Source of the DNA: Labilibacter sediminis
GTDB taxonomy: Bacteria > Bacteroidota > Bacteroidia > Bacteroidales > Marinilabiliaceae
Direction: 5' to 3'
Assembly: GCF_005877885.1 (NCBI RefSeq)
Contig: NZ_VCHY01000005.1
Coordinates: forward strand, 62,001 to 126,000
DNA: 64,000 bases
The notes beneath the pieces were generated by a model. The model saw only the letters and a program-made list of their open reading frames with translations. It did not search any database and had not been told where the DNA came from. The position numbers and the translations under genes are program-made. Positions 1 through 45,855 of the stretch are shown here, piece after piece. The stretch's first letter is position 1; the number at the start of each line of letters is the position of its first letter.

Positions 1-40
1 AGTGAACAGTAAGTAGTAAGCAGTGATCAATTATGAGTAA

Positions 41-77
41 TGATAACTGATAACTGATAACTGATAACTGATAACTG
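41..77. repeat. 7-bp tandem repeat (TGATAAC x5)
   Basis: Five perfect consecutive copies of TGATAAC followed by TG, immediately downstream of the minus-strand response-regulator gene. It is a simple microsatellite; no function is visible. Confidence 0.9.
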
Positions 78-2463: not shown

Positions 2464-2875
2464 TGCTATTATAAGTAAGTGTTAATTGAACTTGCAACTA
2501 TAAAAATAAGAATATTTGAATAACACATTATAATTGTTCTCTTACGGTTATTGCTTATCGATCGACAAACTATTTTTAAACGTTATATTCATCGCATTTA
2601 GGGTATAAAAAATATTTTTTGACTCATCTTCGTTGAAGATAACTTGTAAAAGTTCTTTTTGACGTCAGATTCATCGCTGATTCATAAAAAAAGAATTTAT
2701 ACGCCTTTTTTTCCTCGCATATTCAAATAAAAATTAAAAAGACAGACCATATGCAATAAAATTCACACTTAAAAATATTTTTTTGGTTCAAATAAGATAA
2801 AAATAAAGTACCCAAATAATAATGTAATCGTATTTTAATGAACCCTTACCTTAAAATCATTAGATTTTCTATGCT
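2464..2875. other. AT-rich intergenic region
   Basis: About 410 bases between the kinase start and the end of the HD-domain gene. I see no gene. One small perfect hairpin, ATCTTC-GTT-GAAGAT, lies at 2626-2640 and is flanked by two TTTTTGAC strings. The kinase promoter is probably here, but no clear TTTG/TAnnTTTG pair was found. Confidence 0.5.
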
Positions 2876-14864: not shown

Positions 14865-14927
14865 CATCGCTTTTAAAAACAGGGGCTACAGGATTACAAA
14901 GGTAATACTGGTCAATGTTGAAAAAAA

Positions 14928-15002
14928 GGGCGATTAGCTCAGTTGGTTCAGAGCACTTGGTTTACACCCAAGGGGTCGGGGGTTCGACTCCCTCATCGCC
15001 CA
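14928..15002 (+). tRNA. tRNA-Val (anticodon TAC), copy 1
   Basis: Acceptor stem GGGCGAT/ATCGCCC, anticodon stem CTTGG/CCAAG around loop TTTACAC, T arm with GGTTCGACTCC. The 3' CCA is not encoded. First of three identical copies in a 109-bp direct repeat. Confidence 0.97.
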
Positions 15003-15036
15003 CAACTTTTCTTTCAAAAGCACAAAATAAATTCCA

Positions 15037-15111
15037 GGGCGATTAGCTCAGTTGGTTCAGAGCACTTGGTTTACACCCAAGGGGTCGGGGGTTCGACTCC
15101 CTCATCGCCCA
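15037..15111 (+). tRNA. tRNA-Val (anticodon TAC), copy 2
   Basis: Identical to copy 1, exactly 109 bases downstream; the 34-base spacer is identical to the next one. CCA not encoded. Confidence 0.97.
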
Positions 15112-15145
15112 CAACTTTTCTTTCAAAAGCACAAAATAAATTCCA

Positions 15146-15220
15146 GGGCGATTAGCTCAGTTGGTTCAGAGCACTTGGTTTACACCCAAGGGGTCGGGGG
15201 TTCGACTCCCTCATCGCCCA
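15146..15220 (+). tRNA. tRNA-Val (anticodon TAC), copy 3
   Basis: Identical to copies 1 and 2 and followed directly by an intrinsic terminator, so the three are one transcript. CCA not encoded. Confidence 0.97.
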
Positions 15221-15222
15221 CA

Positions 15223-15258
15223 AAGACTTGCAATTCTTTTTTGCAGGTCTTTTTTTAT
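15223..15258 (+). terminator. Terminator of the tRNA-Val cluster
   Basis: Stem AAGACTTGCAA / TTGCAGGTCTT (11 bp, one G-U pair), 7-base loop, then a run of T. Confidence 0.9.
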
Positions 15259-37541: not shown

Positions 37542-37610
37542 CATCCGCAATCACAAAACAGGTGTTACTTATAAAGATAAGCAAACATGTGAAGTGCAAA
37601 ATATTGAAAG

Positions 37611-37686
<76 letters not shown>

Positions 37687-37691
37687 AGGAT

Positions 37692-37778
37692 GCTCGAGTG
37701 GTGGAATTGGTAGACACGCAAGACTTAAAATCTTGTGTCCATTAGGACGTGCGGGTTCAAGTCCCGCCTCGAGTACCA
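37692..37778 (+). tRNA. tRNA-Leu (anticodon TAA), unit 1
   Basis: Acceptor GCTCGAG/CTCGAGT, anticodon loop CTTAAAA, long variable arm, encoded CCA; five bases after tRNA-Gly. Confidence 0.97.
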
Positions 37779-37780
37779 GT

Positions 37781-37815
37781 AAAGGTTTCTTCTTTTTTAG
37801 AAGAAACCTTTTTAT
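37781..37815 (+). terminator. Terminator after Gly-Leu unit 1
   Basis: 13-bp stem AAAGGTTTCTTCT / AGAAGAAACCTTT and a T run, located inside the tandem array and so copied with it. Confidence 0.85.
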
Positions 37816-37890
37816 TTGACATCAATATGATAACAGATATAGATTCTACTTTTAAAGAAAAGTAAATATGAATCACAAAATTTTGAAAAT

Positions 37891-37966
<76 letters not shown>

Positions 37967-37971
37967 AGGAT

Positions 37972-38058
37972 GCTCGAGTGGTGGAATTGGTAGACACGCA
38001 AGACTTAAAATCTTGTGTCCATTAGGACGTGCGGGTTCAAGTCCCGCCTCGAGTACCA
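37972..38058 (+). tRNA. tRNA-Leu (anticodon TAA), unit 2
   Basis: Identical to unit 1 tRNA-Leu, CCA encoded. Confidence 0.97.
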
Positions 38059-38060
38059 GT

Positions 38061-38095
38061 AAAGGTTTCTTCTTTTTTAGAAGAAACCTTTTTAT
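38061..38095 (+). terminator. Terminator after Gly-Leu unit 2
   Basis: Exact copy of the unit 1 hairpin and T run. Confidence 0.85.
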
Positions 38096-38170
38096 TTGAC
38101 ATCAATATGATAACAGATATAGATTCTACTTTTAAAGAAAAGTAAATATGAATCACAAAATTTTGAAAAT

Positions 38171-38246
<76 letters not shown>

Positions 38247-38251
38247 AGGAT

Positions 38252-38335
38252 GCTCGAGTGGTGGAATTGGTAGACACGCAAGACTTAAAATCTTGTGTCC
38301 ATTAGGACGTGCGGGTTCAAGTCCCGCCTCGAGTA
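38252..38335 (+). tRNA. tRNA-Leu (anticodon TAA), unit 3, no encoded CCA
   Basis: Same body as units 1 and 2, but after the discriminator A the sequence reads CTATA instead of CCAGT, so CCA must be added enzymatically. The repeat unit ends at this point. Confidence 0.96.
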
Positions 38336-38340
38336 CTATA

Positions 38341-38378
38341 AAAAAGGTTTCTTCTAAATTTTAGGAGAAACCTTTTTT
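38341..38378. terminator. Terminator between tRNA cluster and PL8 lyase
   Basis: Long stem AAAGGTTTCTTCTAAA / TTTAGGAGAAACCTTT (one G-U pair) flanked by A and T runs, so it can act for the tRNA cluster (plus) and for the converging PL8 gene (minus, stop at 38400). Confidence 0.85.
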
Positions 38379-43273: not shown

Positions 43274-43429
43274 ACTCACAACACTTTAAACAAACTGATT
43301 TAAAATCATTTACAAAACATGCAGAATATTAGCATATCAAAAACTGCTTAATTTTTACTACCTGGATGTAATACCAATACTATTAATAGTGTCCAAATTA
43401 TTTTTTCACTCGAGCCGCGAAGGCTCTTA

Positions 43430-43475
43430 CTTTTTGCTACAGTCAAAAAAGTAAGCAAAAAGACCGTCGACTACA
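43430..43475. repeat. Hairpin repeat family 2, copy 1
   Basis: CTTACTTTTTG, short loop, AAAAAAGTAAG, then CAAAAAGACC. Same plan as 45229-45275 and 45459-45503. Confidence 0.6.
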
Positions 43476-43728
43476 CCCATTTCACTCAAAAAACTAGGTT
43501 TCATGACTGAAATTGTTTAAACTCACACTTTTTCGTTCCTCGAAGTGCTCAAACAGAAAACAATTTTTAATCGTCATCTCAATCCTGTTTTTTGGCTCTC
43601 TGGCTGAGGTCGAGACTAAACAAGCCGACCTGCATATTTCATTAAAACCTTTAGGACGCTATTGATACTGCATTCTCTTATCGCAATAATTCAAGACTGC
43701 GCCCGTAGGGTAATTGCATTTAAGATTC

Positions 43729-43743
43729 AACCACGTTGTGGTT
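43729..43743. repeat. Small palindrome AACCAC-GTT-GTGGTT
   Basis: Perfect 6-bp hairpin; the same arms recur at 43825-43842 inside the neighbouring structured element. Confidence 0.6.
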
Positions 43744-43780
43744 GTGAAAATATGGATTATCGTATACCCTGCACTTTGTA

Positions 43781-43859
43781 CAGGGCTATTCATATTTTAA
43801 TCCTTTCAGGATTACAATTAGCCCAAACCACGAATGTGGTTTAATTTCGAATAGCCCTG
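43781..43859. repeat. 79-bp nested-hairpin element (REP-like)
   Basis: Bounded by an exact 11-bp inverted repeat, CAGGGCTATTC and GAATAGCCCTG, that encloses two hairpins: AATCC-TTTCA-GGATT (43799-43813) and AAACCAC-GAAT-GTGGTTT (43825-43842). A further hairpin, CCCTG...CAGGG, ends at 43785. The multi-branched fold recalls REP/RAYT-type elements, but no transposase is present. Confidence 0.65.
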
Positions 43860-44149
43860 GATGAATTGAAAATCAATGAAGCCAATTCCGGGGATATTTT
43901 AGCATCATAAAATAGAATCCCTAAAGGATTCAATCTTTAACCCGGATTCCTAAGACTTTTTGAAAAGTAAAACCGAGTAGCTAACTATTTCAAGTATTTT
44001 AGTTCTATCTCGATAAAAATGTGTGTTGGCCGGTTCAATTGGCCCGGGCCGGTAATAGCGCGACGCAGTTGAATGCGGGTGAATAAGGGATGTGTGACGG
44101 CAATAGATTCAACAAGGAGGTGGGCTGAAGGATGAATTGAACTTGATTT

Positions 44150-44191
44150 TTTTGTTTCTTATTGATCAAGCAAAAAGAAAGCCTGTTTGGC
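44150..44191. repeat. Hairpin repeat family 2, degenerate copy
   Basis: CTTGATTTTTTTG ... ATCAAGCAAAAAGAAAGCC follows the family plan (hairpin then CAAAAAGAAAGCC), with weaker arms. Confidence 0.4.
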
Positions 44192-44210
44192 AAAACAATA
44201 TTAGTTAGAT

Positions 44211-44423
44211 GGAATGATGCATTAGGTCTTCGTTATGAACATTGAAAATACAACCTGCCTGTCCGGTAGGCAGTTAAAACAAACACTTACTGAAATGAGG
44301 GATAGCACCGCTACGGTGAGTTGAAGTAAGTGAGTAAAACGATTTGTTTTAAAGAAGTTTCAATGTGTAATACCTGCAAGCCGGCAGGCTGGGATTAGCT
44401 AATGAATGTATTGCGGGTTTAAA
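44211..44423. repeat. MITE-like inverted-repeat element, copy B
   Basis: Left end ATGATGCATTAGGTCTTCGT, right end GCTAATGAATGTATTGCGGG. The central part is nearly the same as copy C (59481-59655), including ATAGCACCGCTA and GTGAGTTGAAG. It carries two extra hairpin insertions, CCTGCCTGTCCGGTAGGCAG and a GCCGGC-centred one, making it longer (213 bp). Confidence 0.8.
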
Positions 44424-44644
44424 TGCGATTGCCCTGACCTTGCCCGCTTTGCTACTAAAATACCTTTTTCAACTCTTGTTGGCATTAATTCTTTATGGCT
44501 GTAATTATGCAACTTATCTGCCTTACAGCCGCAGGAAGGAATACCAATATTACCATGAACTGAGCTTCATAATAAAATTGGTATAAATTTAATATCTCAG
44601 GAGGAGATACATCTATAGTGAAGGCATGTATCAAAAACAAACAA

Positions 44645-44665
44645 CTCCAAAGGAGTTGCATACTA
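44645..44665. repeat. Small hairpin CAACTCC-AAA-GGAGTTG
   Basis: Perfect 7-bp arms; a related hairpin, ATCTC-AGGAG-GAGAT, lies about 50 bases before. Part of the same repeat-rich island; no function visible. Confidence 0.6.
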
Positions 44666-44760
44666 TATTTTAGTTGGACATCAATGTTAAAGATTATGCC
44701 CGTGGCTGCCTTACATACTCCGCATCTTACTTTTAACTAATCTCTTCATTATATCATTTA

Positions 44761-45029
44761 AGTACATCCTCAATATACCAGAGTACATCATTAAACTAAG
44801 TAAGTACATCGTTATATTAGTTAACCACATCGTTTAATTAGTCAAGTACATCTTTAATTTCATTGAGTACATCATTTAATTCTATTAGTACATCTGATGT
44901 ACTTTATTATTTTATTGAAGTACATAATCAAACAAATGATATACTTGAGTAAAATAGTAATGTAGTTAGTTAAATATACAATGTATTCATTGAGGTTACT
45001 GATGTAGTTATACTTTATAACGATGTGTT
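44761..45029. repeat. Mirror array of fourteen 8-bp half-sites at 21-bp period
   Basis: Seven AGTACATC-type sites start at 44761, 44782, 44803, 44824, 44845, 44866 and 44887; seven GATGTACT-type sites start at 44896, 44917, 44938, 44959, 44980, 45001 and 45022. All steps are exactly 21 bp, and the two arms meet in the palindrome AGTACATC-T-GATGTACT centred on 44895. Six of the seven left sites are perfect, the other matches 6/8; right sites match 6-8 of 8. The 13-bp spacers are AT-rich and not conserved, and opposite spacers do not pair well, so this is not one long hairpin. Confidence 0.9.
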
Positions 45030-45062
45030 TGGGTAATTAGATGATTAATCCCTGAAAAAAGA

Positions 45063-45093
45063 AAACCCGGAAGCTTAAAAAACTTCCGGGGTT
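45063..45093. terminator. Terminator-like hairpin CCCGGAAG/CTTCCGGG
   Basis: Perfect 8-bp stem (45066-45073 with 45083-45090) flanked by A and T. Near copy of the SusD terminator at 45858, but with no gene in front of it. Confidence 0.6.
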
Positions 45094-45228
45094 ATATTAT
45101 AAATCAATAGTGACCGACTAAAATACACTTCCTTAAAATTTACCTTCCTTTGTCTTCAAGCCAGACCACTGTCATTAAGTTAAGAAATTCACAGAGTGAA
45201 TTTCTTAATATTGGGACTTTGTCCCAAA

Positions 45229-45275
45229 CCCTAGTTCCTTTTTGTCATTGCCACAAAAAGGAACCAAAAAAGTCT
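45229..45275. repeat. Hairpin repeat family 2, copy 2
   Basis: GTTCCTTTTTGT, short loop, ACAAAAAGGAAC, then CAAAAAAGTC; preceded by GGGACTTTGTCCCAAACCC, which recurs near 45778 as GGAACTTCGTCCCAAACCC. Confidence 0.65.
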
Positions 45276-45458
45276 AGAGCAATAGAATCCTTCCACCCAC
45301 ACCGGTCATCAATTCCGGCCAACACACATCCTCCTCAAGTGCGCTCTTGATGACCTCTCGCCACGCCTGACTCGGTCTATTGCTCTGGCCAACCCCGCTT
45401 TGATTTACAGCTCCAGAAAGCTTTCCATACCTTAACTTAATGACATTGTCAAGCCATA

Positions 45459-45503
45459 CAGACTTTTACTTTCTTCAGCTGAAGAAAGTAAACAAAGAAA
45501 GCC
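45459..45503. repeat. Hairpin repeat family 2, copy 3, with perfect 28-bp palindrome
   Basis: 45465-45492 is a perfect palindrome with half TTTACTTTCTTCAG, followed by CAAAGAAAGCC as in the other copies. Confidence 0.75.
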
Positions 45504-45855
45504 GCCGCTGACATGAAAAAGCTAAAAATTAGTGCTCTTCGCTAAAAGAAAAGAACTCACTGCGTTCAAACAGCTTTTCTTTCTTAACGCTTCGTTTACT
45601 GATTTTCTTAACGCTTTTACATGAAGGCGGTTTAGTTACCCAAACATGATGCATATTTATTTAAACATCAATTCATTAATCTTTTACAACACGCCTTATT
45701 AAATTAGTCGCTCAGTAATGATTATAAATCAATAGGTTGCCAATTACCTTACACTGGATAACACTAACTTATTGGAACTTCGTCCCAAACCCGACTTCCT
45801 TTTTTATTCAAAACAAAAGTAATTTTTAAAGAGGCCAACCTGGCAATGCGCTCAA

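Follow-up and report, generated by a model that had tools for sequence, protein, structure and literature searches.

In REPIN/RAYT systems, palindromic repeats are present in many dispersed copies and are tied to a Y1/HUH transposase gene. Plasmid iterons and partition centromeres are helically phased direct repeats that lie next to the gene for the protein that binds them. TIGR-Tas systems, in the part of the source available to us, consist of one protein and an array in which 8-12-nt locus-specific repeats alternate, with ~9-nt spacers and a 36-nt unit; the Tas protein has a Nop domain, and the array is transcribed and cut into tigRNAs (PMC12045711). TAACTGA heptamer repeats, which some Bacteroidetes also have, are found between genes with a period of 7, mainly as direct repeats and near start codons, according to the part of that report available to us (PMC4679880).

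The window, that is, the whole stretch of 64,000 nucleotides of Labilibacter sediminis that was analysed, contains a mirror array of short sites on a 21-bp lattice, which we call E1. A second copy, E2, adjoins the gene of a 249-aa protein that belongs to a family of ~235-aa proteins of unknown function. We suggest, with a probability of about 0.6, that E1 belongs to a two-part protein/array system as an orphan copy, where the protein would bind and act in trans. By layout, TIGR-Tas is the nearest known system, since it also has one protein beside short (8-12 bp) locus-specific repeats, often two of them alternating. However, the unit here is 21 or 41-43 bp rather than 36 (74 of 80 loci have a best flank period of 20-22 or 41-43 bp), some of the arrays have facing arms, some have near-identical spacers, and gene-less copies exist. 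In addition, no Nop-domain protein was recognised by Pfam in 11 members or among the fold-search matches listed. REPIN/RAYT is the nearest known system in its gene-less copies. There too, palindromic repeats are tied to one gene and have copies elsewhere in the genome, whereas here we find multi-site phased arrays in 2-3 copies per motif and no transposase domain (0 Pfam families at E<=0.01 in 11 members). Iterons and centromeres share the phased repeats beside a gene, but E1 and E2 are on chromosomal contigs and gene-less copies lie at distant loci. The TAACTGA repeats are likewise intergenic short tandem repeats, and the start of the window carries the TAACTGA heptamer. They differ in their period of 7 and in being mainly direct, and the part of the report available to us describes no comparable cognate gene (PMC4679880). 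The features of the window are as follows.

1..77, no strand: part of a heptamer array whose two arms face each other (CAGTnAn / TGATAAC) and which starts upstream, at about C321:61930
2540..2790, no strand: array of 41-bp period with no DUF6261 gene alongside; by reading, its motif resembles the array at C342 34810-35070, upstream of a DUF6261 gene
44748..44894, minus strand: left arm of E1, seven 21-bp units with half-site AGTACATC on the plus strand (GATGTACT when read outward)
44887..44903, no strand: central 17-bp palindrome of E1, AGTACATC-T-GATGTACT, axis at 44895
44896..45042, plus strand: right arm of E1, seven 21-bp units with decayed half-sites
45061..45095, no strand: terminator-like hairpin immediately past E1, seen by eye

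A sequence-only reading of this DNA had described E1 as seven AGTACATC sites facing seven GATGTACT sites at an exact 21-bp period, with the whole 269 bp symmetric and only the 8-bp half-sites kept. The lattice holds, with left sites at 44761+21i and right sites at 44896+21i, and the sequence bears out both the 17-bp central palindrome and its axis, a T at 44895. The claim of seven sites to the right of the axis was generous, since this arm is decayed: one of the seven is exact, two have 1 mismatch and four have 2. On the left, six of seven sites are exact and the remaining one has 2 mismatches. The symmetry is far above chance but approximate, the right sites being degenerate. E1 has a period-21 mirror score of 159.1, where 40 dinucleotide shuffles of the whole window reach at most 103.9. 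For the local 1 kb the score is 156.9, and its 300 shuffles reach at most 91.1. Over the 24 units of E1 and E2, the half-site columns are indeed the best kept (mean ~1.5 bits, with ~0.65 in the other 13 columns), but they are not alone, as columns 13-19 (about TAWTTWA) form a second, partly conserved block. The outward unit is GATGTRCTTAnnTAATTAAAY. E1 reads as noncoding; of the 24 frames of the E1 and E2 arms, 23 contain stop codons, and the open exception is one E2 right-arm frame.

Dispersed-looking intergenic repeats are present at window positions 43400-44740 and 45170-45840, inside the 2.7-kb gap around E1, and C342:252200 has an inverted copy of a stretch near 44010-44180. At 14927-15223 and 37597-38377, the window has tandem duplicated tRNA-bearing units with periods of 109 and 280 and 97-100% matches.

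E1 is not unique. A whole-genome search, as the sequence-only reading had proposed, found a second mirror array, E2, at C342:183.8 kb, the sole other place with two adjacent exact sites. E2 has five clear units per arm, the half-site of E1, different spacers and the central palindrome of E1 with one base altered. Between E1 and E2 units, the half-sites are 0.806 identical and the spacers 0.457, for a composition expectation of 0.347. With two mismatches allowed, the remaining matches in the genome are at the level of a reversed-pattern control, and E1 and E2 are the only arrays of this motif found by searches of the genome. Relatives, which that reading had also proposed to search, gave a different result: the motif is absent from the other species of the genus (8 of 8), and a four-site pattern with <=3 mismatches is found in one of 393 genomes, its own. 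An exact three-site pattern has 0 matches in genome contigs and 0 in viral contigs. A three-unit profile run over nine genus genomes gave no further strong place among the scored candidates, the best outside E1 and E2 reaching 20.6 bits. Plasmids (33 records) and phages (2) gave weak matches to E1, with E of 0.3-1 and <=14% of the query among the matches listed. A mirror scan beside meaB, the neighbour gene of E2, found no array in eight genus mates.

Several candidates were rejected. Two-site matches in other genomes at L016, L028, L030 and L011 were judged on reading to be coding or isolated and not homologous, and a lattice script found no array at the loci of the remaining two-site matches. 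The mirror-scan match L061 is a direct 21-bp repeat with a heptad-coding reading and was judged unrelated.

E2 lies between convergent genes, ~70 bp downstream of the gene of the 249-aa protein (L007:7063-7812, minus strand). The other genes flanking E1 and E2 look SusD-like, T9SS-type and TlpA-like; these names come from reading, and the domain search was on the 249-aa protein only. On reading of the flanking genes, no replication or partition gene was noticed beside E1 or E2.

Genes of the family to which the E2-side protein belongs are associated with arrays. In the L. sediminis genome a 21-bp array is present beside all five family loci, one of which is a gene fragment (C2) with a modest score of 3.99. 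In the other genomes of the genus, 12 places were found, and a period of 21 ranks top in eight of the ten family loci scanned; two of the ten are without a clear array. For a set of GTDB genomes, we scored the 450-bp flanks of the best 80 of 104 relatives (39-59% identity). The best periods were 21 in 31 loci, 41 in 18, 42 in 11, 43 in seven, 20 in five and 22 in two, and the best signal is downstream of the gene in 76 of the 80. A z above 4 was reached in 67 of 80 family loci, leaving 13 without a clear array, and in 7 of 78 far-flank controls, none of these seven at 21. These wider statistics use our own period score and a far-flank control that is unmatched for coding content, and the period preference serves as its own control. 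The binomial probability of 3e-50, which assumes 36 equiprobable periods, gives the scale only, some of the loci being near-duplicates.

The period is ~42 bp where two cores alternate and the lattice is otherwise of 21 bp, and the cores vary between loci. By a crude 8-mer count, 47 gene-side arrays could be classed, of which 30 are direct only, 12 have a few inverse copies and five are mirror arrays. A crude CnGGRA count over 77 loci found the core forward-dominant in 22 and reverse-dominant in 10. A hairpin with an 8-bp stem is found within 110 nt after the stop codon in 36 of 77 loci and in 4 of 77 letter shuffles, counted whatever its position relative to the array. The family is spread over Bacteroidota and genomes labelled Gamma-/Deltaproteobacteria, Aminicenantes, KSB1, Neomarinimicrobiota and Holophagae; many of these genomes are MAGs, which may be mislabelled or wrongly binned. 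Among 60 candidates in viral contigs, the family was confirmed in none. The E2-side protein is divergent, with 26-36% identity to genome-search matches and 32% in another comparison. The units of L219, L246, L252, L261 and L283 come from different phyla; by eye they have a loose pattern in common, close to CCGnAGGAAGGGTnTAAA, and may descend from one ancestral unit. An Rfam scan of 12 sources gave a single match, to DUF3800-V RNA (RF02964, 49.9 bits), at 4378-4474 of L246, an Aminicenantes MAG locus, ~170 bp past the array.

A period scan of noncoding DNA shows what else the genome contains. It covered periods 15 to 51 in 1.46 Mb, about one quarter of the genome (372 contigs), and is blind to genes. 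The scan peaks at P=21, with six arrays over threshold and a heptamer array, and at P=41, with four arrays; another P=21 array, E3, is narrowly under threshold, and no array is over threshold at 20, 22, 40 or 43. The remaining matches are two echoes of P=21 arrays at P=42, short-unit arrays at P=16 (three) and P=24 (one), tRNA repeats at P=26 and a long repeat at P=51. The P=21 and P=41 arrays split into several groups with distinct cores. In the same 1.46 Mb, tblastn found four genes, one from the E2-side family and three of DUF6261; all but one adjoin arrays over threshold, and the exception (P41AT) adjoins a weaker P=41 signal (3.98). The arrays at C219:156660 and C110:83361, E4 and F5 have neither a neighbouring gene of either family nor a located partner. 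In 400 kb of one genus mate there is one period-23 array, with weaker matches at 17 and 25. An intergenic palindrome scan returned mostly terminators and dispersed palindromic repeats. At L119, L310 and G000:C110:322623-322870, the three cores CCCCGGGG, TTTACGCAAT and TTTACACACA and their complements are mixed on one 21-bp lattice, and the last of these arrays is partly a 63-bp higher-order repeat.

The proteins beside F2a, F3a and P41AT match DUF6261 (PF19775) with 72-132 bits, the gathering cut-off being 27, and these arrays lie upstream of the genes. Among 25 DUF6261 loci of the genus, z exceeds 4 in 17, all at 41-42 bp and all upstream, and eight are without a clear array. In an earlier count of all 30 loci, with a baseline from those same loci, the best period was 41 or 42 in 21. 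The E2-side protein is unmatched by DUF6261, and a profile comparison finds no relation between the families (probability 3.6). The earlier idea that every site faces one side of the helix, for a putative cooperative binder, fits these results, with arrays adjoining two protein families at periods of ~2 or ~4 helical turns. At another place in the genome (L296), the heptamers seen at the start of the window flank a PF05635 (23S-IVP) gene on both sides, and two other PF05635 loci among ten listed (L293, L298) have strong 8-bp arrays upstream.

We read E1 as an orphan because Marinilabilia rubra and other motifs also have gene-less arrays that share the core of a gene-side array. At C110:256 kb and C332:104 kb, where the searches met no family gene, arrays have the core and, by reading, the end sequence of the gene-side array at C66. 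The C311 array shares its core and, again by reading, its end sequence with C110:322 kb, which is gene-less, and with C2, at which only a gene fragment matches. One DUF6261 motif has three arrays, with the gene beside one of them. Genome-wide, two arrays were counted for the E1 motif and three for each of two other motifs. M. rubra has one mirror array beside a family gene and a second elsewhere with the common core and different spacers, with no family gene within 1.5 kb of the latter; a third place is on C6. This pair is the E2/E1 situation in another genus. A core/spacer contrast between units of the two M. rubra arrays was set aside as biased, since the units had been chosen by their core and included off-phase matches.

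The M. rubra family member (L223) has an AlphaFold model with a pLDDT of 94.8 from a 70-sequence alignment. The model is all-helical, with one helix of 50 residues, and the matches listed for it (Foldseek, VIA) include neither a clear relative nor a recognised DNA-binding fold. The fold searches return helical proteins with a best Z of 8.2, which is in the range that the tool calls common for helical models; the four-helix S23-family protein 2rld is among them (Z 7.6, rmsd 2.8 over 92 residues). The family is acidic (median pI 5.1, net -8), and only the C-terminal ~26 residues are basic. The NCBIfam family PQLLE (NF052641) is matched by 50 of 70 members at E<=0.01 (best 1.3e-11), and the bit scores of five members, 15-29, are under the curated cut-off of 80. 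By these profile matches, PQLLE would be at most distant kin. In the 11 members scanned with Pfam, 0 families match at E<=0.01 and no catalytic domain was recognised. PADLOC matched none of six proteins, PHROGs gave two weak matches of unknown function, and a sequence search of solved structures gave nothing convincing.

From the association of gene and array, we infer that the protein binds the DNA and what purpose this serves. The E2-side protein would recognise its own core as DNA and would bind cooperatively along one helix face. Sites spaced by two turns lie on the same face, which makes cooperative filaments, or bridges from array to array, the obvious guess, and a mirror array would hold two filaments that meet at the dyad. 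We favour DNA over RNA since some arrays have facing arms, the core is found on either strand, and hairpins are common past the stop codon. E1 is probably bound in trans by the E2-side protein, the link being the shared motif, and the protein would act there. E1 was probably left after a gene copy was lost. More generally, an orphan probably results where a gene-plus-array copy has lost its gene and the bound sites remain under selection. Candidate roles of the complex are locus bridging, local chromosome structure, insulation and self-maintenance. Such a protein-plus-DNA-array system looks undescribed, and our searches of the open-licence literature gave no description of an array partner for the E2-side family/PQLLE or for DUF6261.

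Other explanations are less probable. The gene with its array could be a selfish mobile element, and the orphans its MITE-like copies, moved in trans much as RAYTs move REPINs. This would suit the spread over several phyla, with identities of 39-59% among the best 80 of 104 relatives, the 2-3 arrays per motif, the end sequence beyond the cores that C66/C110/C332 and C311/C2/C110 have in common by reading, and the gene fragment with an array at C2. We nevertheless regard it as unlikely, if the least unlikely of the alternatives: no catalytic domain was recognised in the family, copy numbers are low, and the spacers have strongly diverged while the cores are kept, unlike what is predicted for relics. 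Alternatively, the arrays could be templates of small RNAs used by the adjacent protein in the manner of TIGR-Tas, with guide-like spacers. The ground plan of one protein beside an array of alternating locus-specific repeats is alike in the part of that source available to us (PMC12045711), and the 42-bp arrays with two alternating cores resemble edge/loop units. However, the period is 21 or 41-43 and not 36, the supposed spacers are nearly identical in some arrays (L257, L259), and the cores can lie on one strand or the other, also in facing arms. Hairpins often follow shortly after the stop codon, and the single Rfam match in 12 sources (L246) falls past the array. We therefore consider guide RNAs rather improbable.

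The mirror arms could also fold into hairpins or cruciforms, as RNA or as DNA, and selection could act on these. The folding z-scores point this way, being -4.5 (E1) and -4.8 (E2) for RNA and -3.4 (E1) for DNA. Mirror partners, on the other hand, are not clearly more alike than non-partners, with identities of 0.612 against 0.605 permuted in E1 (45% of permutations reach the observed value) and 0.610 against 0.587 in E2 (30%), and thus the hairpin is not what is preserved. The classable gene-side arrays also speak against it, 30 of 47 being direct only, 12 having few inverse copies and five being mirror arrays, and we give it very little weight. The decayed heptad-coding tandem repeat that the sequence-only reading had offered as its alternative is scarcely credible. 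Twenty-one bp is seven codons, the [D/N]V[L/V] frame has its highest information at second and its lowest at third codon positions, and one of 24 arm frames (E2 right arm) is open. Yet by reading of the units, stops recur at the fifth codon of that frame in both elements, in three of the four arms, and the second copy keeps the half-site and axis but not the spacers. The facing arms and the palindromic cores of sister arrays also argue against coding, no intact homologue was met, and the sole 21-bp coding repeat met (L061) is direct and was judged unrelated.

Returning to the two-part system, we tentatively extend it to a large undescribed class of helical proteins, each of which would read a private 8-12-bp core every two or four turns and co-diversify with it. 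Gene-less arrays would let one such protein tie together a few chromosomal sites, and the two families, perhaps with 23S-IVP and its 7-8-bp arrays, would be independent versions. DUF6261 and the E2-side family, both of unknown function, gain a concrete and testable partner. A class of junk-like intergenic repeats, gene-less copies included, would be explained. If the proteins bind their arrays, the matched pairs of protein and core would record how one scaffold shifts its DNA specificity.
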